The notes under the pieces: model-generated
Told to the model about the DNA's origin: nothing
What the model saw: only the letters and a program-made list of their open reading frames with translations
Database searches by the model: none
From: Cyanobacteria bacterium K_DeepCast_35m_m2_155
Lineage (GTDB): Bacteria; Cyanobacteriota; Cyanobacteriia; PCC-6307; Cyanobiaceae
Direction: 5' to 3'
Length of the DNA stretch: 49,416 bases
Assembly: GCA_016882285.1 (NCBI GenBank)
Contig: VGQS01000003.1
Span: 1-49,416, forward strand
In this document: positions 4,380-45,323 of the stretch, in pieces
Numbering within the stretch: position 1 is the stretch's first letter
How the letters are laid out: each line of letters opens with the position of its first letter
Program-made: the position numbers and the translations under genes

Positions 4380-5846
4380 ATGGTGCTGGGCACCAGCAGC
4401 GGTGCCGGTAAGTCATTGATGACGGCGGCGCTGTGCCGGGTGCTGCGGCGCCGCGGCGAAACGCCGCTGCCCTTCAAGGGACAGAACATGAGCAACAACG
4501 CCTGGGTCGACCCCGATGGTGGGGAAATGGCCTACTCCCAGGCGCTGCAGGCCTGGGCGGCGGGCCTGGAGCCCCAATGCGCCATGAACCCGGTGCTGCT
4601 CAAACCCCAGGGGGATTCCACCAGCGAGGTGATTCACCTGGGCCAATCGGTCGGCAGTGCCCGCGCCGAGCACTACTACCGCGACTGGTTTCGCCCTGGC
4701 TGGGCGGCGATCCGCCAGGGGCTGAGCGAGCTGCAATCAGCCCATCCCGGCGGGAGGCTGGTGCTCGAGGGGGCGGGATCGCCGGTGGAGGTGAACCTGC
4801 AGCCGCGCGATCTCACCAACCTGCGGCTGGCCCAGTACCTGCGGGCCCGCTGCATCCTGGTGGCCGACATCGAGCGCGGCGGGGTGTTTGCCCAGCTGGT
4901 GGGCACCCTGGCATTGCTGCGGCCTGTGGAGCGGCCCTTGATCAGCGGCCTGCTGATCAACCGCTTCCGCGGCCGGCGCGAACTGTTTGATGAGGGGCGC
5001 CGCTGGCTGGAAGCCAACACGGGCATCCCGGTGCTGGGGGTGATGCCCTGGCTCGATGAGCTGTTCCCCCCCGAAGACTCGCTCGATCTGCTTGAGCGCC
5101 GCGGCCGCAAACGCGGCGCCGAGCTCGAGATCGCCGTACTCAAGCTGCCCTCACTGAGCAACTTCTCCGATCTCGATCCGCTCGAAGCCGAACCCACCGT
5201 GCAGTTGCGCTGGGTGGCACCCGGCGAAGAGCTGGGAGCGCCGGATGCGGTGGTCGTGCCCGGCAGCAAACAGACCCTGAGGGATCTGGCAGCCCTGCAG
5301 CAGAGCGCTGCACTGTGCGGCGACCTGCAGCGCTTTACGGCAGGCGGGGGCCATGTCTTCGGGATCTGCGGCGGCATGCAGCTGCTGGGCCGTGAGCTGC
5401 ATGACCCCGAGGGACTCGAAGGCAGCACTGGCCACAGCGGCAGCAGCGCCGGCCTTGATCTGCTGCCGTTGCGCACCGTGTTTGGCGGCAGCAAAGCCCT
5501 GCGCCAGCGCAGCAGCCAGGCGCTGTGGCCGGGTGAACCGCTGCCGATAGAGGGGTTTGAACTGCATCGCGGCAGTAGCACCCCGCTTGAAGCCTGCCAA
5601 CCGCTGTGCAGTGAAAACGATCTGGGCTGGGTGCACGGCACGGTGGCCGGCACCTACCTGCACGCGGTGTTTGAAAGCGGCCCGTGGAGGCGGCGCTGGC
5701 TCAACCAGCTGCGCACGCGCAAGGGGTTGCCGTTACTGAGCGAACAGCAACCACACCACAGCCGTCAGCGCGAGGCACTGCTCGATCGCCTCGCCGATGC
5801 CTTCGAGCAACACGTGAACCTCGAGCCGTTGCTGAAGACGCCGTGA
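4380..5846 (+). CDS. cobQ: Cobyric acid synthase (glutamine-hydrolysing)
   Basis: CobQ/CbiP amidates the b, d, e and g side chains of adenosylcobyrinic acid a,c-diamide using glutamine and ATP, a late cytoplasmic step of cobalamin synthesis. The N-terminal dethiobiotin-synthetase-like ATPase domain begins with GTSSGAGKS (P-loop), followed by [12 protein letters not shown]. The C-terminal class I glutaminase-like domain has its nucleophile in FGICGGMQ (Cys at about 330) and the partner histidine in GTYLHAVFE (about 428). Length (488) is normal. The ATG used gives [12 protein letters not shown] directly. The stop overlaps the GTG of the ferredoxin gene (GTGA), so the two are coupled. CobL of the same pathway is encoded at 30-31 kb. 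Confidence 0.96.
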
Positions 5847-6082
5847 AAGACGTCGTGATCCACTGGCCGGGCGGACACACCAGCCGTTGCACCCCGGGCA
5901 CAGATTGGCTGGCAGCAGCGCGCGAGGCGGGCTTTTCGATCCCAACGGGCTGCCTGGGCGGCAGCTGCGGGGCCTGCGAACTCGATGTCAATGGCACCAC
6001 CATTCGCGCCTGCATCGCCACGGTGCCTGCGAGCAACAGCGGCGAGCTCACGGTGGAGTTGACCACTGATCCCTATTGGTGA
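5843..6082 (+). CDS. Small 2Fe-2S ferredoxin
   Basis: A 79-residue ferredoxin from a GTG that overlaps the cobQ stop. The cluster ligands are Cys 37, 42, 45 and 57 ([16 protein letters not shown] then RAC), spacing C-x4-C-x2-C-x11-C. The last spacing is much shorter than in photosynthetic PetF ferredoxins and resembles the 2Fe-2S domains of SdhB-like and molybdenum hydroxylase proteins. It is probably a soluble electron carrier for a dedicated partner. Coupling to cobQ suggests co-expression with cobalamin synthesis (for example a reductive step), but that is inference from position. Any start further upstream would lie inside cobQ. Confidence 0.88.
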
Positions 6083-6106
6083 ACACCGGGATTGCCGCCC
6101 ATGCGC

Positions 6107-7270
6107 TCAGCGCTGAATGAGCCCGCCGCCCAGCACCACCTCACCGGCGTAGAACACCGCCGCCTGACCGGGGGTGATCGAAAACTGCTCATCGGCAAAC
6201 ACAAGCCGGCAGCGGTGGGGCCGGCCCGCCGCCGCATCGACGTCAGCCGGCGCCAGAGGAGACAACTGCGCGGCAACGGCTGCACTGCGGTAGCGAACCT
6301 GTACCTCAACGTCGATGGGCTGCGCAGGCGGCTCGATCGACACCCAGTTGACCGCACCCACCACCGCCTCGCTGCAGGCCGCCTCGCTGCGGGGGGCCAC
6401 GACCACCCGGTTCATGGCCCCGTCGAGCCGCACCACGTGCAAGGGCTCGCTCCAGGCCACACCGAGGCCCTTGCGCTGGCCGATCGTGAAGTGCTCGATG
6501 CCGTCATGGCTGCCCACCACGGTGCCATCGGCCAGCACGATCTCGCCGTCCCTGGGCGGCAGGTAAGCATCGAGGAAGGCCTTCATCGAGCCGTGATGAT
6601 CGGCCAGGCAGAGGTCCTGACTCTCGGGTTTCTGCGCGGTGCGCAGGCCATGGCGCGCAGCCTCAAGGCGCGTGTCGGGCTTGGTCAGCTCCCCCAGCGG
6701 GAACACCAGCCGGCCCAGCACCGGCTGCGGCAGGTCATAGAGGAAATAGCTCTGGTCCTTGTGGGCATCGAGCCCGCGCAGCAGTTGGTGACGGCCGTTG
6801 TCGCTCTGCTCGCCGTGGCGCACCCGCGCGTAGTGGCCGGTGGCGATGCGCTCGATGCCGCGCTCGCGCTCGGCCCACTGCAGCATCGGGCCGAATTTGA
6901 CCTCGCGGTTGCAGCGCGAGCAGGGCAACGGCGTGATGCCATCGCCGTAGCCCTGCACCAGAAAATCGACGATCTGCTGCTTGAAGTGCTCGCGGAAGTC
7001 GACCACGTGATGGGGCACGCCGAGTTGCTCACAGATGCCGGCCGCATCGACCAGCCCCTCGGCGCAGCAGGCCCCCTTGCCGCTCATCAGCCACAGGGTG
7101 AGCCCCTCAACCGACCAGCCCGCCTCCACCAGAAGTGCCGCCGTGAGCGAACTGTCGACCCCGCCCGAGAGCCCCACCGCCACCCGGTGCTCACCCGGCC
7201 AGGCGCGCAGGTGCTCCAGCACCACGGCGCCCGCGGCAGTGACGGCAGGTCCAGCGGTCAATGGAGCCAA
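6107..7270 (-). CDS. mnmA: tRNA 2-thiouridylase MnmA
   Basis: MnmA (TrmU) adenylates and thiolates U34 of tRNAs for Lys, Glu and Gln, using sulfur relayed from a cysteine desulfurase. The PP-loop GLSGGVDSS lies at residues 33-41. The two active-site cysteines are expected in [11 protein letters not shown] and in [10 protein letters not shown], both present. The C-terminal beta-barrel ends with [11 protein letters not shown], the usual family tail. The 387-residue length is typical with a short N-terminal extension; a start a few codons later is possible. It is convergent with the ferredoxin gene and divergent from nnr. Confidence 0.95.
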
Positions 7271-7355
7271 GACAACGAGCCCAACGCAAACAGCGGCAAG
7301 TGCGGCACAAGTGGGCCGCCGCTTCCATCATGAAACCGAGAGATGCCGCGTTGCC

Positions 7356-8951
7356 TTGAACGCCCCCTGCTGGCCCGAGCGCGACAGCGCCCACCTGCTG
7401 GTCACAGGCGTCCAGATGGCCGCGCTCGAACACGAGCTCTTTGCCAGTGGGCTGCCGGTGGAGGCGCTCATGGAAAAAGCGGCCCTGGCGGTGGCAGCGG
7501 CGATCCAGGCCGACTGGGGCGAGCGGCTGGCCCGCCATGGCGCCGTGGTGCTGGCAGGGCCCGGCCACAACGGCGGCGACGGGCTGGTGGTCGCCCGCGA
7601 GCTGCATCTGGCCGGCATCGACGTGGCGATCTGGAGCCCGTTTGAGCGGCACAAGCCGCTCACAGCAGCTCACCTGAGCCATGCCCGGTGGCTGGGCATA
7701 CCCGTTGAACAGGCAGCCCCCGACCCAGCGGGGCCGGCGCTGTGGATCGATGCCCTGTTCGGCATTGGCCAGAGCCGCCCCCTGGCTGAGCCCACCGCCA
7801 GCCTGCTGGAGCAGCGCCACAGGCTGACGCCGGGAGCTCTGGTGGCGATTGATGTACCCAGCGGGCTCGATGACACCAGCGGCGCGCCGCTGGGCGCGAC
7901 CACAGCCATGGCTGCAACCACCTACACAATCGGCCTGATCAAACGCGGCCTGGTGCAGGACGGCGCCCTGGCCGCCGTCGGCCGGCTGCAGCGCATCGAT
8001 CTGGGTCTGCCGGCGCCGCTGCTGCAAAACCTGGAAGCGGCGACGCCACTGGGGCTGTCTGCAGCCGACTGCGGCAGCGGCGTCGCGTTGTTACCGCCGC
8101 TGGATCCAGCAGCCAGCAAATACGAGCGCGGCCGGCTGCTGGTGATCGCCGGCAGTGACGCCTACCGCGGCGCCGCACTGCTGGCGCTGCTGGGCGCCGA
8201 TGCCAGCGGCCTGGGCAGCCTGCGGGCTGCCCTGCCGCAGAGCCTGGCGGCGGGGCTGTGGCAGCAGCTGCCCCATGTGGTGCTGCAACGCCAGCTCAAC
8301 TGCAGTGGTGAAGGTGCCCTGCGGCTCAGCGAGCTGGCCGCAAGCGATCTGGAGCGGCTTGATGCGGTGCTGCTGGGCCCCGGCATCGGTGCGCTGAAGC
8401 AGGGCGCCCACGGGGCAGAGGCCGAAGCTGCCGCCTGGGATCTGCTGCAGCGCTTCAGCGGGCTCTTGGTGCTCGATGCCGATGGCCTCAACCGCATCAA
8501 CCCCGACTGGCTGCAGCAGCGCCGCGGCCCCAGCTGGATCACACCGCACCGGGGTGAATTTGCTCGGCTGTGGCCGCAGTGGGCTGAGCTGCCGCCGCTC
8601 GATGCCGCGCCACGGGCCGCCGCCGCCAGCGGAGCGGCGGTGCTGCTCAAAGGCGCGCGCAGCGTGATCGCCGCCCCCGACGGCCGCTGCTGGCAACTGC
8701 TCGAAGCGGCCCCCAGCAGCGCCCGCGCCGGCCTGGGAGACGTGTTGGCTGGCTATGTCTCTGCCCAGGGAGCCATGGCCCTGGCGAGCGGCGCGCACGG
8801 CGATGCGACAGGGCTGGCAGCGGCCGCCTGCGCCAATGCCTGGGCCGGCACCATGGCTGCCGGCAGCGGTAGCACGAGCCCAGCCGCCGTGGCCCAGCAG
8901 CTGGGTCAGCAACTGAGTCAGAAACGAAAAACAGAAGTGATTCTCAAATAA
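7356..8951 (+). CDS. nnr: Bifunctional NAD(P)HX epimerase / dehydratase (Nnr)
   Basis: Repairs hydrated, inactive NADHX and NADPHX. The N-terminal YjeF epimerase domain (about 1-215) shows ALMEKAALAVAAAI and GPGHNGGDGLVVAREL. The C-terminal ATP/ADP-dependent dehydratase domain begins near KYERGRLLVIAGS and ends with GLGDVLAGYVSAQGA, the ribokinase-like motif carrying the catalytic aspartate; the usual GTGD is GLGD here. No ATG lies before the conserved LLVTGVQMAALE, so the TTG at 7356 (531 residues) is the likely start; an ATG at 7416 would cut off the first conserved block. It is transcribed away from mnmA. Confidence 0.9.
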   Translation: MNAPCWPERDSAHLLVTGVQMAALEHELFASGLPVEALMEKAALAVAAAIQADWGERLARHGAVVLAGPGHNGGDGLVVARELHLAGIDVAIWSPFERHKPLTAAHLSHARWLGIPVEQAAPDPAGPALWIDALFGIGQSRPLAEPTASLLEQRHRLTPGALVAIDVPSGLDDTSGAPLGATTAMAATTYTIGLIKRGLVQDGALAAVGRLQRIDLGLPAPLLQNLEAATPLGLSAADCGSGVALLPPLDPAASKYERGRLLVIAGSDAYRGAALLALLGADASGLGSLRAALPQSLAAGLWQQLPHVVLQRQLNCSGEGALRLSELAASDLERLDAVLLGPGIGALKQGAHGAEAEAAAWDLLQRFSGLLVLDADGLNRINPDWLQQRRGPSWITPHRGEFARLWPQWAELPPLDAAPRAAAASGAAVLLKGARSVIAAPDGRCWQLLEAAPSSARAGLGDVLAGYVSAQGAMALASGAHGDATGLAAAACANAWAGTMAAGSGSTSPAAVAQQLGQQLSQKRKTEVILK

Positions 8952-39075: not shown

Positions 39076-40956
39076 ATGCCGATTCGTCAGGACGACAACC
39101 AGCCGAACCGGCGCATCGGCATCGTCAACCTGGTGCTGATCGGCTTTGGTGTGCTGCTGCTGTTCAGCAACTTTTTGCCGAATCCGGCGATGCAGGTGCC
39201 GCGGGTGCCCTACTCGCTGTTCATTGACCAGGTCAACGACGACAACGTCAAGCGGGCTTACATCACCAGCGATCAGATCCGCTACGAGCTCAAGGCCCCG
39301 CCGGCCGAAGACGCGCCCACGGTGCTCTCGACCACGCCGATCTTCGACATGGATCTGCCCCAGCGGCTCGAGCAGCACGGCGTCGAATTTGCCGCCGCCC
39401 CGCCCAAAAAACCAAGCTTCATCACCACGGCGCTGAGCTGGGTGGTGCCGCCCTTGATCTTCATTTTGGTGCTGCAGTTCTTTGCCCGCCGCAGCGGCAT
39501 GGGCGGCGCCCAGGGGGCCCTCAGCTTCACCAAGAGCAAGGCCAAGGTGTACGTGCCCGATGAGGAATCGCGCGTCACCTTCGCCGATGTCGCCGGTGTC
39601 GATGAGGCCAAGGACGAGCTCACCGAGATCGTCGACTTCCTCAAAACCCCAGAGCGCTACACCGCCATCGGCGCCCGCATCCCCAAGGGGGTGCTGCTGG
39701 TGGGCCCTCCCGGCACCGGTAAGACCCTGCTCTCCAAGGCCGTGGCCGGTGAGGCGAGCGTGCCGTTCTTCATCATCAGCGGCTCGGAGTTCGTCGAGCT
39801 GTTCGTGGGTGCGGGCGCGGCGCGGGTGCGCGATCTGTTTGAGGAAGCCAAGAAAAAGGCGCCCTGCATCATCTTCATCGACGAGCTCGATGCGATCGGC
39901 AAGAGCCGCGCCGGCTCGATGGGTGTGGTCGGCGGCAACGACGAGCGCGAGCAGACCCTCAACCAGCTGCTCACCGAGATGGACGGCTTTGCCGCCAAAG
40001 ACAAACCGGTGATCGTGCTGGCCGCCACCAACCAGCCCGAAACCCTTGACGCCGCGCTGCTGCGCCCAGGCCGCTTTGACCGTCAGGTGCTGGTCGACCG
40101 CCCCGACCTGAGCGGTCGCCGCACGATCCTCGACATCTATGCCAAGAAGGTAAAGCTGTCCGGTGAGGTGGATCTGGACCGCATCGCCCAGGCCACCGCC
40201 GGCTTTGCCGGTGCTGACCTGGCCAACCTGGTCAATGAAGCCGCGCTGCTGGCCGCCCGTGCCAAGCGCACCCAGGTGGAGCAGGGCGACCTCAACGAGG
40301 CGATCGAGCGCGTCGTCGCCGGTCTTGAGAAAAAGAGCCGCGTGCTCCAGCCCGACGAAAAGAAAGTGGTGGCGTATCACGAGGTGGGCCACGCCATCGT
40401 CGGCCACCTGATGCCTGGCGGCAGCAAGGTCGCCAAGATCTCGATCGTGCCCCGCGGCATGAGCGCCCTGGGCTACACCCTGCAGCTGCCCACCGAAGAG
40501 CGCTTCCTCAACTCCAAGGACGACCTCGAAGGCCAGATCGCCACGTTGCTGGGCGGCCGCAGCGCCGAAGAGGTGGTCTTTGGCGCGGTGACCACCGGCG
40601 CCGCCAACGACCTACAGCGCGCCACCGACATTGCCGAGCAGATGGTCGGCACCTACGGCATGAGCGAAACCCTGGGCCCCCTGGCCTACGACAAGCAGGG
40701 CGGCAGCCGCTTTCTGGGCGGCGCCAACAACCCCCGCCGCGCCGTGAGCGACACCACCGCCCAGGCCATCGACCGCGAGGTGCGGGGTCTGGTCGACCGC
40801 GCCCACGACCGGGCCCTGGCGATCCTGCGCCACAACCGCGATCTGCTCGAGCGCATCTCGATGGAGATCCTCGACAAGGAAGTGATCGAAGGCGACACGC
40901 TCAAGAGCCTGCTCTCGGAAAGCACGATGCCCGAAGAGGCGTTGTCAGGCGCCTGA
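39076..40956 (+). CDS. ftsH: ATP-dependent zinc metalloprotease FtsH
   Basis: A membrane-bound AAA+ protease; in cyanobacteria FtsH complexes remove damaged D1 during photosystem II repair and regulate other membrane and soluble proteins. Two membrane helices (about 14-34 and 118-136) flank a lumenal/periplasmic loop. Walker A GPPGTGKT is at 210-217, followed by the pore loop region [20 protein letters not shown] and Walker [12 protein letters not shown]. The zinc site HEVGH is at about 435-439. 626 residues is typical. The paralogue type (FtsH1-4) cannot be fixed without a tree. The cupin gene starts 37 bases later. Confidence 0.97.
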
Positions 40957-40993
40957 GCCCTCAACAGAATGCGGGCAGGTTGGCGATCGACGG

Positions 40994-41497
40994 GTGGATC
41001 TGGAGCACTTGCTCGCCAACATTGCCCAGCACCGGGTTGAGGCGCCAGAACCATCGAAATGCCGATGGTCTGCCGATCAAGCCGCAGGCGAGGGGTTGCA
41101 CTACAGCAACCGCAATGAGCGCCTGGGGATCAACTTTCAGGTTGAGAAGCTGGCTTTTGCCGGCCTCCAGGTCATGGACCCGCGGGTGGTGGTGATCGCT
41201 GCAGGCTGCTGCAACGAGAAACATCGCCACGCCCATGAGTCGATCTTTGTGGTGCTCAGCGGCGAAGCCGAGATCCAGATCGGCCAGCAAACCACCGTGC
41301 TGGGGCCAGGTGCTGTGGCCTATGTGCCCCGCTGGGTCGTGCACCAGAGCCGAAACCGATCGGCTACCGAGCCGTTGACGCTGCTGGCGATCACCGACTT
41401 CGGACTGACCTCGGCCGTGCTCGGTGATTACGACTCCCGCACACGGCTGAAAGCCGGCGGCGTCGACGCCTTTGCGCAAGATCCCCAGACCCCCTGA
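40994..41497 (+). CDS. Cupin-domain protein, first gene of a four-gene set
   Basis: A 167-residue single cupin. Motif 1 is EKHRHAHESIFVVLSGEAEI (about 76-95), with histidines fitting the metal site, and motif 2 is PGAVAYVPRWVVHQSRN (about 105-121). The N-terminal 70 residues lead into the barrel (RWSADQAAGEGLHYSNRNER). Such proteins bind a metal and act as dioxygenases, isomerases or ligand sensors; the substrate is unknown. GTG start. It lies 37 bases after ftsH and 4 bases before the diiron-fusion gene, so it is probably transcribed with the next three genes. Confidence 0.85.
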   Translation: MDLEHLLANIAQHRVEAPEPSKCRWSADQAAGEGLHYSNRNERLGINFQVEKLAFAGLQVMDPRVVVIAAGCCNEKHRHAHESIFVVLSGEAEIQIGQQTTVLGPGAVAYVPRWVVHQSRNRSATEPLTLLAITDFGLTSAVLGDYDSRTRLKAGGVDAFAQDPQTP

Positions 41498-41501
41498 ATC
41501 G

Positions 41502-42653
41502 ATGAGCTTTTTCAACACCCTGCCCAGCGACCTGCAGCAGGCGCTTCAGCAACTCGGTCTGCGGCGTCAGCTGGAACCTGGGGACGTGCTGATCGCGCGT
41601 GGGGGCTTTGACAAGAACCTGTTCGTGCTCGAAAGCGGCGAGCTGCGGGTCGACACCAGCCGCAACGGGCAGGAGCTGAGCATCGCGCTCAAGCCCGGCG
41701 ACGTGGTGGGCGAGATGGCCTTTCTCGACAACCGGCCGCGCACGGCAACCGTGATCGCCAGCAGGCCCAGCACCGTGCTGGCCTTTGACCGCGAGGCCAC
41801 CTTCCAGCACCTCAGCGACAGGCCGCTGGAACTCAACGAGCTGATCAATCGCCTGGCCGGCCTGCAACGCAGCCGTCTGCAGGACGCTGCCGCCAAGGAC
41901 CAGCGCGAGCATGGCGCCATCGTCGATGCGCTGGCCGCTGAAGCGCTCGCGCACCGCGCCGTCAACCATCCGTACCTGCAGGCGCTGGCGTCGGGGGACC
42001 TGCCCGACACCACCGCAGCCCTGGCCGATTTTGCCCGCCACTACTACGGCTACTCCGCCCACTTTCCCCGCTACCTCACCGCCCTGATCTCCAAGCTGGA
42101 GCGCCCCGATCACCGCGCCGCCCTGCTCGAAAACCTGACCGAGGAGTCGGGTCAATACGAAGACGAGGAACTGGCTGAACTGCAGCAGTGCGGGGTGCAG
42201 AGCGAATGGATCGTCGGCATTCCCCATCCGCAGCTGTTCCAGCGGTTCCGCCGGGCCCTGGGGGTGGACAACACCGATGCCGCCGATGACCACATCGAAG
42301 TGGTGTGCTGGCGGGAGCTGTTCCTCTCGATCCTGACCAACGGCTCACCGGCCGAAGCGCTCGGCGCCCTGGGCTTGGGCACCGAGACGATCGTGCAGAC
42401 CATCTACCAGCCGTTCGTCGATGCGATCGATTGGATCGGCAGCCTCAGCCCCGAAGACGCCGTGTTCTTCCCGTTGCACACCGCCGTCGACGACCATCAC
42501 CAGGCCACCCTCAAGGCGATCGCCACCGATTTCGCCGCCACAGCCCAGGGTCGTGCCGATCTCGCCAAGGGGATGCGCAAGGCTCTCGCCCTGCGCGATG
42601 CCTTCTGGGGCTGGCTGCATGAGCGAGCCAAAGCCCAGCCCGCCGCAGCCTGA
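41502..42653 (+). CDS. Cyclic-nucleotide-binding domain fused to a haem-oxygenase-like diiron oxidase
   Basis: A 383-residue fusion. Residues about 12-115 are a CRP/cNMP-type beta-barrel with a good phosphate-binding cassette (PGDVVGEMAFLDNRPRTATV), but no DNA-binding domain follows. Residues about 135-380 are an all-helical haem-oxygenase-like domain (Haem_oxygenase_2 / HDO type): NHPYLQALASGDLP, FARHYYGYSAHFPRYLTAL, ENLTEESG, PHPQLFQRF and a final H-x3-D-x2-H at about 326-333, which together could hold two irons. HDO enzymes cleave or oxidise amino-acid and fatty-acid-derived substrates. A cyclic nucleotide or similar ligand may gate the oxidase. Start MSFFNTLP is preferred over a GTG/TTG upstream overlapping the cupin gene. 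Confidence 0.85.
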   Translation: MSFFNTLPSDLQQALQQLGLRRQLEPGDVLIARGGFDKNLFVLESGELRVDTSRNGQELSIALKPGDVVGEMAFLDNRPRTATVIASRPSTVLAFDREATFQHLSDRPLELNELINRLAGLQRSRLQDAAAKDQREHGAIVDALAAEALAHRAVNHPYLQALASGDLPDTTAALADFARHYYGYSAHFPRYLTALISKLERPDHRAALLENLTEESGQYEDEELAELQQCGVQSEWIVGIPHPQLFQRFRRALGVDNTDAADDHIEVVCWRELFLSILTNGSPAEALGALGLGTETIVQTIYQPFVDAIDWIGSLSPEDAVFFPLHTAVDDHHQATLKAIATDFAATAQGRADLAKGMRKALALRDAFWGWLHERAKAQPAAA

Positions 42654-42659
42654 ACCACC

Positions 42660-43433
42660 ATGAGCAACGCCATCAGCACCCAGGACCTTTACGACCAGGC
42701 GGCCGCGCAGTGGAGCCGCAGCGAGCAGCTGCTGCTCAGCGATTTCACCGCCCGGCCGCGGGTGCTCGAAGCCGCTGGCGATGTCCGCGGCCAGCATCTG
42801 TGGGATCTGGGCTGCGGCGAGGGGTATGTGGGCCGGCAACTGGCGGCGGGCCAGCCGCGCCGCATCGACGGATTTGACCTCTCCGAGGAGATGATTGCCA
42901 GCGCCCGTCAGCAGGCCGGAGCGCTGGCTGCCGAGCAGGGCGGACCGCTGCACTACGCCACGGCCAACCTGTCCGACGCCAGTCAGTTTCCCGAGGGTCA
43001 ATGCGATGGCGCCATCGCCGTGTTTCTGTTCAACTACCTGAGCATCGCGGCCATGGAGGCGGTGCTGCAGCGTTGCCATCAGGCGATCCGCCCGGGCGGC
43101 GTCCTGATCTTCACGGTGCCGCACCCGGCGCTGGCCTTTCTGCGGCCGGCGGAGCCGCCGTTTTACCTGGAGCCCCAGGGGCACACCTACCTGGGCAGCA
43201 GCGACGTGCAGTTCGAAGGGCGCATCTGGCGCCGCGACGGGGTGAGCAACCCGGTGCGCTCGATCCACAAGACCTTTGCCGACTACATCGGTGCGCTGCA
43301 GCGCAGTGGCTGGAGCGCGCTGCCCGTGGTGCAGGAACTGGGCGTCACCGCCGAACACCTGCAGGTGGATCCCGCCTTCTTTGCGCCGCTGCAGGGCTGC
43401 CCGCTGCACCTGCTGTTTCAGCTGCGACGCTGA
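42660..43433 (+). CDS. Class I SAM-dependent methyltransferase
   Basis: A 257-residue Rossmann methyltransferase. Motif I is LWDLGCGEGYVGRQL (about 47-61), an acidic residue after strand 2 is in GFDLSEEMIASAR, and motif IV/post-motifs are CDGAIAVFLFNYL and RPGGVLIFTVPHPAL. The C-terminal part (PPFYLEPQGHTYLGS, RSIHKTFADYIGALQRSGW) is typical of small-molecule methyltransferases of the UbiE/Coq5 type. The substrate is not known. It starts 6 bases after the diiron fusion gene and ends 5 bases before the dioxygenase gene. Confidence 0.9.
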   Translation: MSNAISTQDLYDQAAAQWSRSEQLLLSDFTARPRVLEAAGDVRGQHLWDLGCGEGYVGRQLAAGQPRRIDGFDLSEEMIASARQQAGALAAEQGGPLHYATANLSDASQFPEGQCDGAIAVFLFNYLSIAAMEAVLQRCHQAIRPGGVLIFTVPHPALAFLRPAEPPFYLEPQGHTYLGSSDVQFEGRIWRRDGVSNPVRSIHKTFADYIGALQRSGWSALPVVQELGVTAEHLQVDPAFFAPLQGCPLHLLFQLRR

Positions 43434-43438
43434 GCCCG

Positions 43439-44308
43439 ATGCCGTCCCCGAACGCACGCATGACCAAGCCGTTCAGCTGGAGCGCTGCCGAACTCGCCAG
43501 CAGGCCCCAGTGGCGCTTCAACGGCAGCCCTGAGCTGCTCAAGCTTGATGCGGCCGCGCTGAACGCCTGGATGGAACCGGTGATCACCGAGCTGACCCAG
43601 GGCTCGGGTGCCGCCCTGATCCAGGGGTTGGGGCAGGTCAGCGAGCCCGACCTGCGCGCGCTCTATCTGGCGATCGGGCGCTGCATCGGCAGCGTCGACA
43701 CCACCTATGGCGAGCTCTACGACGTGGTCGACACCGGCGCGTCGTACCTCGAGAAGGCGATTCCGGTCTCCCAGACCAACGCCTCCACCTCGGTGCACAC
43801 CGACAGCTCCCGGCTCGAGACCCATCCCCGCTGGGTGGGCCTGGCCTGCGTGCGGCAGGCACCGGTGGGCGGGGGCTCGCGCATCGTGTCGGCGGTGGCC
43901 GTGCACGACCACCTGGCGGCCCACGACCCTGCAGCGCTGGCGAGGCTGCAGCAGCCTTTTTTCCGCGATGTGGTCACACCCGGCAGCGAGACCAATGCCC
44001 TGGAGCTGATCCGCGGCAATGCCTTTGCCGTATACAGCCAGGCCGATGACGGTCCGACCCTGCGCTACATGCGCTATTGGATCGAAAAGGCCCATCAACG
44101 CCTCAACCAGCCGCTCGAGCCCCTGGATCTGGCCGCCTTCGACCGGCTCGATCAGACCCTCAACGACCCACGCTTCCGCTACGACTTCGATCTGGCGCCC
44201 GGCGATCTGCTGTTCATCGACAACCACAAACTCGCCCACGACCGCGATGCCTTCGTCGATGACCCGCAAGCACCGCGGCTGATGGTGCGGCTGTGGCTCA
44301 ATGCCTAG
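43439..44308 (+). CDS. TauD/TfdA-type Fe(II)/2-oxoglutarate dioxygenase
   Basis: A 289-residue non-haem iron dioxygenase. The iron ligands are H120 and D122 (SVHTDSS) and probably H267 (NHKLAHDRDAF); R284 (LMVRLWLN) fits the 2-oxoglutarate carboxylate site. LAPGDLLFIDNHKL is the usual strand before the distal histidine. Relatives hydroxylate amino acids, sulfonates or natural-product scaffolds. Start ATG 43439 (MPSPNARMTKPF); ATG 43460 is possible. It closes the cupin - diiron fusion - methyltransferase - dioxygenase set, 52 bases before argF. Confidence 0.9.
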   Translation: MPSPNARMTKPFSWSAAELASRPQWRFNGSPELLKLDAAALNAWMEPVITELTQGSGAALIQGLGQVSEPDLRALYLAIGRCIGSVDTTYGELYDVVDTGASYLEKAIPVSQTNASTSVHTDSSRLETHPRWVGLACVRQAPVGGGSRIVSAVAVHDHLAAHDPAALARLQQPFFRDVVTPGSETNALELIRGNAFAVYSQADDGPTLRYMRYWIEKAHQRLNQPLEPLDLAAFDRLDQTLNDPRFRYDFDLAPGDLLFIDNHKLAHDRDAFVDDPQAPRLMVRLWLNA

Positions 44309-44360
44309 ACCTTGACGCCGGGGCCCTCGATCGCGGATAAGGGTTCTTTGAGACCGGCCC

Positions 44361-45323
44361 ATGGTCAGCGCCGCCACCTCGAATGCTGTGCCGCAGAGCC
44401 TGCGCGCCCTGGCGGGCAGCGACCTGCTCTCCTCGGCTGATCTAAGCGCCGAGCAAACCGCAGCCCTGCTGCAGCTGGCGGCCGATCTCAAAGCGGGCCG
44501 CACCCTCATCGACCTGGGCGGCAAGGTGCTGGGGCTGATCTTTAGCAAGGCGTCCACCCGAACGCGGGTGAGTTTCACCGTGGCGATGGCGCGGCTGGGC
44601 GGGCAGACCATTGACCTGAACCCCCAGGTGAGCCAGGTGGGGCGCGGCGAGCCGGTGGCCGACACGGCCCGGGTGCTGAGCCGCTACGTCGATGCGCTGG
44701 CGATCCGCACCTTCGGCCAGGACGAGCTGGCCGAGTATGCGCACTGGGCGTCGATCCCGGTGATCAACGCGCTCACCGATCTCGAGCACCCCTGCCAGGC
44801 CCTGGCCGATTACCTCACCCTTGCCGAGGCCTTCGGCGATGCGCGCGGCCTCACCCTCACCTACCTGGGCGATGGCAACAACGTCGCCCATTCGCTGATG
44901 CTGTGCGGCGCCCTGCTGGGGGTCAACGTGCGCATCGGCTGCCCAGCGGGCTACGCGCCAGACCCGCAGGTGCTGGAGCACGCGCAACAGCTGGCTGCCG
45001 CCCAGGGCTGCACGGTGAGCGTGCTGCACGAGCCGCTGGCAGCCGTGCGCGGCGCCCATGCCCTCTACACCGATGTGTGGGCCTCGATGGGCCAGGAACA
45101 GGAAAAGGCCGAGCGCGAGCGGGCCTTTGCCGGCTGGTGCCTCAATGAAGAGCTAATCGCCGAGGCCGACAGCCGCGCCATCGTGCTGCACTGCCTGCCC
45201 GCCTACCGGGGCCTGGAGATCAGCGCCGGGGCCATGGAGGGCAGCGCCAGCCGCATCTTTGATCAGGCCGAAAACCGCCTGCACGCCCAGCAGGCCCTAC
45301 TGGCGGCCCTGCTGGCGGGCTGA
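44361..45323 (+). CDS. argF: Ornithine carbamoyltransferase
   Basis: ArgF makes citrulline from ornithine and carbamoyl phosphate in arginine synthesis. The carbamoyl-phosphate loop is SKASTRTRVSF (about 62-72), HPCQALADYLTL binds the substrate phosphate side, and the ornithine loop is DVWASMGQE with HCLPAYRG near the end. 320 residues, standard. In relatives that I remember, ftsH, argF and lexA lie close together; here the four-gene oxidase/methyltransferase set separates ftsH and argF. Confidence 0.96.
   Translation: MVSAATSNAVPQSLRALAGSDLLSSADLSAEQTAALLQLAADLKAGRTLIDLGGKVLGLIFSKASTRTRVSFTVAMARLGGQTIDLNPQVSQVGRGEPVADTARVLSRYVDALAIRTFGQDELAEYAHWASIPVINALTDLEHPCQALADYLTLAEAFGDARGLTLTYLGDGNNVAHSLMLCGALLGVNVRIGCPAGYAPDPQVLEHAQQLAAAQGCTVSVLHEPLAAVRGAHALYTDVWASMGQEQEKAERERAFAGWCLNEELIAEADSRAIVLHCLPAYRGLEISAGAMEGSASRIFDQAENRLHAQQALLAALLAG

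Follow-up and report, generated by a model that had tools for sequence, protein, structure and literature searches.

We analyzed a stretch of 49,416 nucleotides from Cyanobacteria bacterium K_DeepCast_35m_m2_155 (contig VGQS01000003.1, positions 1 to 49,416; hereafter the window), in which four genes lie between ftsH and argF. They encode a small cupin, a haem-oxygenase-like diiron (dimetal) oxidase (HDO) preceded by a cyclic nucleotide monophosphate (cNMP)-binding domain, a class I S-adenosylmethionine (SAM)-dependent methyltransferase (MT) and a TauD-type Fe(II)/2-oxoglutarate (2OG) dioxygenase (Table 1). The source assembly is 83% complete (1.74 Mb in 165 contigs). Frames, starts, stops and gaps were verified base by base, and all four genes are complete and on the same strand. 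The spacing given in the original prediction, which was made from the letters of the window, proved to be exact (ftsH-37-cupin-4-HDO-6-MT-5-TauD-52-argF, in bases), and its statement that no carrier protein, nonribosomal peptide synthetase (NRPS) or transporter belongs to the four-gene unit was upheld. The whole set is compact, at 3.3 kb. All four proteins exceed the curated Pfam cut-offs (122.5 vs. 27 bits in the case of TauD). The ratio of nonsynonymous to synonymous changes relative to related copies (pN/pS) was 0.23-0.52 for each gene; being well below 1, these values indicate that the four genes are under purifying selection. A scan for promoter-like consensus sequences upstream of the cupin gene found one site vs. 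0.1 expected, a number that is not evidence of function.

Table 1. Features of the ftsH-argF interval in the window
Feature	Position	Strand	Details
ftsH, upstream flank	39076-40956		
Promoter-like site TTGTCA-17-CAGAAT	40942-40970	+	spans the end of ftsH, 23 bases 5′ of gene 1; no evidence of function
Gene 1, small cupin	40994-41497	+	167 aa, GTG start; Pfam Cupin_2 7e-16
Gene 2, cNMP-binding domain + HDO	41502-42653	+	383 aa; Pfam cNMP_binding 3e-19, Haem_oxygenas_2 (PF14518) 2e-21
cNMP-binding domain of gene 2	41562-41807	+	Pfam, residues 21-102; phosphate-binding cassette VGEMAFLDNRPRTATV
HDO domain of gene 2	41934-42629	+	predicted diiron ligands E215, H242, E295, H326, D330, H333 (3H/3C)
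Gene 3, class I SAM-dependent MT	42660-43433	+	257 aa, motif I DLGCGEG; Pfam Methyltransf_25/11/12 (Methyltransf_25 6e-16)
Gene 4, TauD-type Fe(II)/2OG dioxygenase	43439-44308	+	289 aa, HTD (H120, D122) ... H267; Pfam TauD 4e-35
argF, downstream flank	44361-45323		

The set, or part of it, occupies the ftsH-argF site in seven genomes. All four genes are present in five of them: that of the window and those of four further species, G267 (locus L016), G343 (L021), G366 (L019) and G259. The order is permuted in G366 (MT-TauD-cupin-HDO), and each of the three junctions is a 4-base overlap in G259. The remaining two genomes, G204 and G235, have the cupin and HDO genes only. Away from this site, we found HDO-MT-TauD-cupin in two near-identical proteobacterial metagenome-assembled genomes (MAGs; L022 and L023), an HDO-cupin pair in a deltaproteobacterial MAG (L018) and an HDO-MT pair at the end of a contig in a UBP10 MAG (L017). 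Several copies of the cassette come from MAGs. A second cyanobacterial family (f6, group g87) has HDO, MT and TauD genes in line in four genomes. The MT of the window is 44-65% identical to its counterparts in the other cassettes.

The cupin and HDO also occur fused in a single polypeptide, in both orders. A cupin::HDO fusion is followed by MT and TauD genes in G291 and is accompanied by a diverged MT-TauD pair on a separate contig in G059. The opposite arrangement, HDO::cupin, was read as a protein of 503 aa in two of the g87 genomes (G613 and G628) and was found on its own in a partly contaminated genome (G452). The HDO and cupin motifs share one frame in a third g87 genome (G615), and the fourth (G707) gave no match to the exact cupin motif. 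Taken together, the permuted gene order, the fusions both ways and the reappearance of the genes at unrelated sites argue strongly that they serve one function. The idea that the four genes form a conserved functional unit is therefore supported: rather than being scattered and unlinked in all relatives, they form linked sets in the ftsH-argF genomes, the proteobacterial MAGs and g87. The linkage that had been proposed is real, but the set is composed of two separable modules and not one. As the cupin and HDO genes occur alone in G204, G235 and L018, they constitute the core, to which a separable MT-TauD pair is added.

Some of these neighbourhoods have features of their own. The gap between ftsH and argF (40957-40993 and 44309-44360 in the window) lies between core genes and has repeatedly received insertions, holding different versions of the cassette in at least four genera. 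In L016, the broken-frame remnant of a second HDO copy lies between the HDO and MT genes (5220-5563), probably a decayed duplication. Just 3′ of the HDO-cupin pair of L018 is a gene whose product joins a cNMP-binding domain to an M3 oligopeptidase (5153-7369). The G291 stretch also has small genes whose translations read as toxin-antitoxin-like and transposase-like.

We asked how the genes are distributed among 400 sampled genomes of the window's family. The cupin profile matched in 11, TauD in 8 and MT in 9; an HDO was present in all 11 cupin-bearing genomes and an MT in all 8 TauD-bearing ones. Co-occurrence was strong for both cupin and TauD (7 genomes shared, Fisher p = 8e-12) and TauD and MT (8 shared, p = 6e-16), in tests that ignore the relatedness of the genomes. 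The cassette was not found in any of the five further genomes examined from the window's genus, and ftsH and argF adjoin without it in three of these same-genus genomes (G047, G082 and G127). The set is therefore accessory; it is rare (2-3% of the family) and also found outside the cyanobacteria. Viral contigs yielded no relative of the HDO or cupin and phage records no DNA match, and there is therefore no sign of phage carriage; plasmids yielded only distant HDO and MT homologues. Several of the MAGs bear names of lake or reservoir origin (Loclat, Pavin, Kiruna), so the window organism probably lives in freshwater.

The HDO domain of gene 2 has the haem-oxygenase-like alpha bundle, according to both its PF14518 match and the matches of its AlphaFold2 model (predicted local distance difference test score, pLDDT, 78) to known HDOs: CADD (Z 18.3), HrmI (18.1), BesC (17.9), FlcD (17.1), HamA (15.7) and UndA (15.2). 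The model also matched RohS over its HDO part and, at its N-terminus, the cNMP domains of CRP and HCN proteins. A shared fold by itself shows no function. In an alignment to CADD, residues E81, H88, E142, H174, D178 and H181, its metal ligands, fall on E215, H242, E295, H326, D330 and H333 of gene 2. Of 22 relatives, 21 retain this 3-His/3-carboxylate (3H/3C) set if the Glu that replaces D330 in the two g87 copies is accepted; because the basal branches of the tree of these relatives had weak support, we drew on it for ligand columns and close groupings only. The sole exception is an orphan HDO in the single-contig genome G023 (L014:9145-9966), which has R326, H330 and R333 in window numbering; three ligands are lost, yet the frame is open over 273 codons. 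No cupin or TauD partner was found in this genome, and the only MT was a weak match. The decay of the ligands where partners are lacking fits a need of the HDO for its partners.

The original prediction had described the oxidase as cNMP-gated. The domain is indeed present, with its phosphate-binding cassette motif intact in the window; however, L019 retains only a truncated form, and L021, G235 and the fusion proteins lack it. The domain is most plausibly an optional regulatory add-on. An adenylate cyclase (PF00211) was not found in the organism's own, incomplete assembly but is present in two genomes of the same genus.

The predicted active sites of the other oxygenases are also intact; on the aligned sequences, the cupin His triad, the Fe/2OG triad and the HDO ligands are all in place. 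The predicted metal site of the cupin is an HxH...H motif (H77, H79, H117) of the three-His type found in SznF; H77, H79, H81, E82 and H117 are invariant across five relatives, and the protein has a conserved tail (LAITDFGLTSAVLGDYDxRTRL). The nearest matches of the cupin profile in the PDB include gentisate 1,2-dioxygenase and 5-nitrosalicylate 1,2-dioxygenase, among other cupins. H120, D122 and H267 of TauD are invariant in the relatives compared. In the PDB, its profile matched FrbJ (1e-21), 7n7v, gamma-butyrobetaine dioxygenase (2e-13) and TmpA (7e-10); the predicted model was weak (pLDDT 62.5) and was left out of the fold comparison. Family profile searches gave no match of the MT to the protein arginine methyltransferase (PRMT) family.

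The explanation we favour, with a probability of about 0.6, is that the genes have spread horizontally, are probably co-transcribed and encode a pathway for the oxidative tailoring of a single small soluble metabolite, with HDO and cupin as its core. Linkage, fusion, intact active-site residues and purifying selection are the direct evidence for it, and we infer the following scheme, including co-transcription, the order of steps, the substrate class, channelling and regulation. Using O2 at its diiron site, the HDO would oxidize a small, probably amino-acid-like substrate, by N-oxygenation, C-C cleavage or desaturation. The product would be handed directly to the 3-His cupin and there be rearranged or oxidized further. 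In full cassettes, the MT and then the dioxygenase related to FrbJ and gamma-butyrobetaine hydroxylase would cap and hydroxylate the product, and the N-terminal cNMP domain, where present, may confer regulation. An amino-acid-like substrate is likely because characterized HDOs act on amino or fatty acids, by N-oxygenation, C-C cleavage, desaturation or rearrangement (PMC13108848). The fusion of the HDO to a 3-His cupin suggests the hand-over of an unstable oxidized intermediate, as in SznF, which passes a dihydroxylated guanidine to its cupin (PMC11705231). The best reading, by analogy, is that the two enzymes act in tandem according to the logic of SznF, without detectable sequence kinship to it.

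Several observations weigh against this explanation. G204, G235, G249 and G297 lack MT and TauD, which were not seen beside the L018 pair either, so that the full set is not obligatory. The cupin and HDO genes are 32 kb apart in G249, and G242 has HDO-MT-TauD with no cupin on the 6.7 kb contig or genome-wide at E<=1e-20. In-frame stops interrupt the L019 cupin and the L016 MT and TauD, reflecting either MAG errors or decay. Ring-cleaving dioxygenases are among the nearest solved relatives of the cupin, as would fit an enzyme of catabolism.

We weighed these data against five other explanations. The pathway could copy that of SznF outright, with the HDO N-oxygenating a guanidine or amine, the cupin rearranging it to an N-N product (N-nitroso or diazeniumdiolate) and MT and TauD supplying or modifying the amino-acid precursor. 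HDO and cupin in one polypeptide is the mark of SznF among characterized HDOs (PMC13108848), the HDO::cupin fusions share its domain order, and the cupin has the H-x-H...H triad that the SznF cupin requires (PMC11705231). SznF likewise needs a methylated arginine, and the HDO model matches the N-oxygenase HrmI. SznF/StzF (streptozotocin), GrbD and ChmM resemble our set in combining HDO, 3-His Fe cupin and methylation; in the window, however, HDO and cupin are separate adjacent genes and the single polypeptide is confined to fused relatives. The set also differs from these systems in its mostly small, separate cupin, its cNMP domain, its MT, which is of another type and matches no PRMT family, its added TauD and its lack of an NRPS. 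Nor were they found by sequence: SznF is absent from the seven PDB chains matched by the HDO domain at E<=10 and from the 38 PDB matches of the cupin profile at E<=0.01. It was not listed in the fold comparison of the gene 2 model either, which excludes nothing. Finally, E222, the candidate for the extra Glu of a 3H/4C site, is not invariant, being A, G, S, I or a gap in 6 of 22 relatives. We therefore consider this variant unlikely. The same holds, a little more strongly, for a role in quaternary-ammonium or phosphonate metabolism, where the MT would make an N-methylated amine to be hydroxylated by TauD in the manner of gamma-butyrobetaine hydroxylase, TmpA or FrbJ. These enzymes, the nearest to gene 4, belong to the same TauD subgroup, and Y90 and Y94 of TauD align to Y177 and W181 of human BBOX, which, with Y205, are its cage aromatics. 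The third cage position, however, aligns to a Ser, the neighbouring genes are different, and the scores of TauD reach about 50 bits at most, far short of cut-offs of 400 or more (50.5 vs. 414.75 bits for the gamma-butyrobetaine dioxygenase equivalog of NCBIfam). This role also leaves unexplained the HDO-cupin core, which is found without MT and TauD.

A catabolic or detoxifying cassette, in which the cupin would be a ring-cleaving dioxygenase and the other enzymes would prepare an environmental compound for it, appears improbable. The cupin profile matches to gentisate and 5-nitrosalicylate dioxygenases and the accessory distribution of the set are in its favour, but no hydrolase, isomerase, CoA enzyme or transporter recurs beside the copies read, and tandem chemistry on an unstable intermediate is a better fit to the cupin-HDO fusion. 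Much less credible is the absence of any pathway, the ftsH-argF interval being an integration hot spot that collects unrelated accessory genes. In favour of this, the site is empty in three genomes (G047, G082, G127) and holds a subset in two (G204, G235); the idea is already contradicted, however, by the recurrence of the same four families off-site in L022, L023, G291 and g87, where the gene order differs and fusions occur. A Pycsar-like anti-phage system, sensing through the cNMP domain and acting through the HDO, would account for PADLOC matches to PycTIR and PycC, but these are limited to the generic cNMP domain, no cyclase adjoins the copies read and several homologues have no cNMP domain, making this reading barely conceivable.

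Other candidates were rejected. Among defence systems, apart from the generic cNMP matches, the MT matched mad2 over its SAM-binding core only. CADD (PabS, p-aminobenzoate synthase) and BesC are the closest solved HDOs by sequence (2.6e-6 and 1.8e-5, respectively) as well as by fold, and have the same 3H/3C ligands. A folate role of the CADD type was nevertheless discarded, as Tyr27, the sacrificial residue of CADD, and Lys152 align to Leu and Phe, respectively, in the window HDO (alignment to 1rcw), and TIGR04305 scores 58.7 bits vs. a cut-off of 200. The BesC (4-chloro-allylglycine synthase) equivalog of NCBIfam likewise scores 28.3 bits vs. a cut-off of 500, and the window type differs from both enzymes in its fused cNMP or cupin domains and its MT and TauD neighbours. 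The ham cluster for fragin and valdiazen resembles our set in having HDO (HamA) and cupin (HamB) as separate neighbouring genes; it differs in requiring an NRPS, an AurF-type N-oxygenase and HamE, and HamB is reported to be non-essential for valdiazen (PMC11659414). A ribosomally synthesized and post-translationally modified peptide was considered on account of TldD/PmbA beside L022 and a SagB-type dehydrogenase beside the g87 operons. Neither recurs at other copies, and the window has no room for a precursor gene. The SagB-type gene lies tail-to-tail with the HDO-cupin, MT and TauD operon in all four g87 genomes (L059:3888-5402; L061; L062; L063).

Functions are known for only about a dozen HDOs. 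Among those characterized, SznF is the one with a cupin domain according to a 2026 review (PMC13108848). A lineage unrelated in sequence that combines these folds, with fusions in either direction, offers a natural test of whether HDO-cupin tandem chemistry is shared. We found no description of the four-gene set in 5.39 million open papers, a scope that leaves aside subscription papers, in line with the original prediction, which knew of no pathway described for it; a 2026 review of Microcystis secondary metabolism names neither cupin nor HDO. The set suggests that a small metabolite of lake cyanobacteria has been overlooked and, with 3.3 kb and no carrier protein, lends itself to expression as a unit and a metabolomic search for the product. 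A bolder and quite tentative proposal is that it represents a second, independently evolved HDO-cupin tandem catalyst which, with its dedicated MT and 2OG oxygenase but no NRPS or carrier, might build a new small oxidized nitrogen metabolite, perhaps containing an N-N or N-O bond, both in lake picocyanobacteria and in a second family of cyanobacteria.

More distant cousins of the HDO occur in other settings. On an Indioceanicola plasmid (L056:5866-11544), a cousin HDO and MT lie with a glycosyltransferase, an ATP-grasp-like protein, a TylF-like MT and a DegT aminotransferase, adjoining genes read as flagellar hook genes. In G396 (L083:2661-9213), the cousin pair lies with a glycosyltransferase, an LPG_synthase_TM protein and DegT, and the HDO of G046 (L015:1-3048) adjoins a protein like one of the Indioceanicola island, a TylF-like MT and a glycosyltransferase. 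These glycan-type clusters look like an undescribed sugar-modification module. The cousin clusters may point to a long-standing association of HDO and MT and to amino-acid-like or amino-sugar-like substrates. On a 38 kb plasmid of Pantoea agglomerans (L057:5896-7896), the HDO is fused to a class-III aminotransferase and annotated only as ectB.

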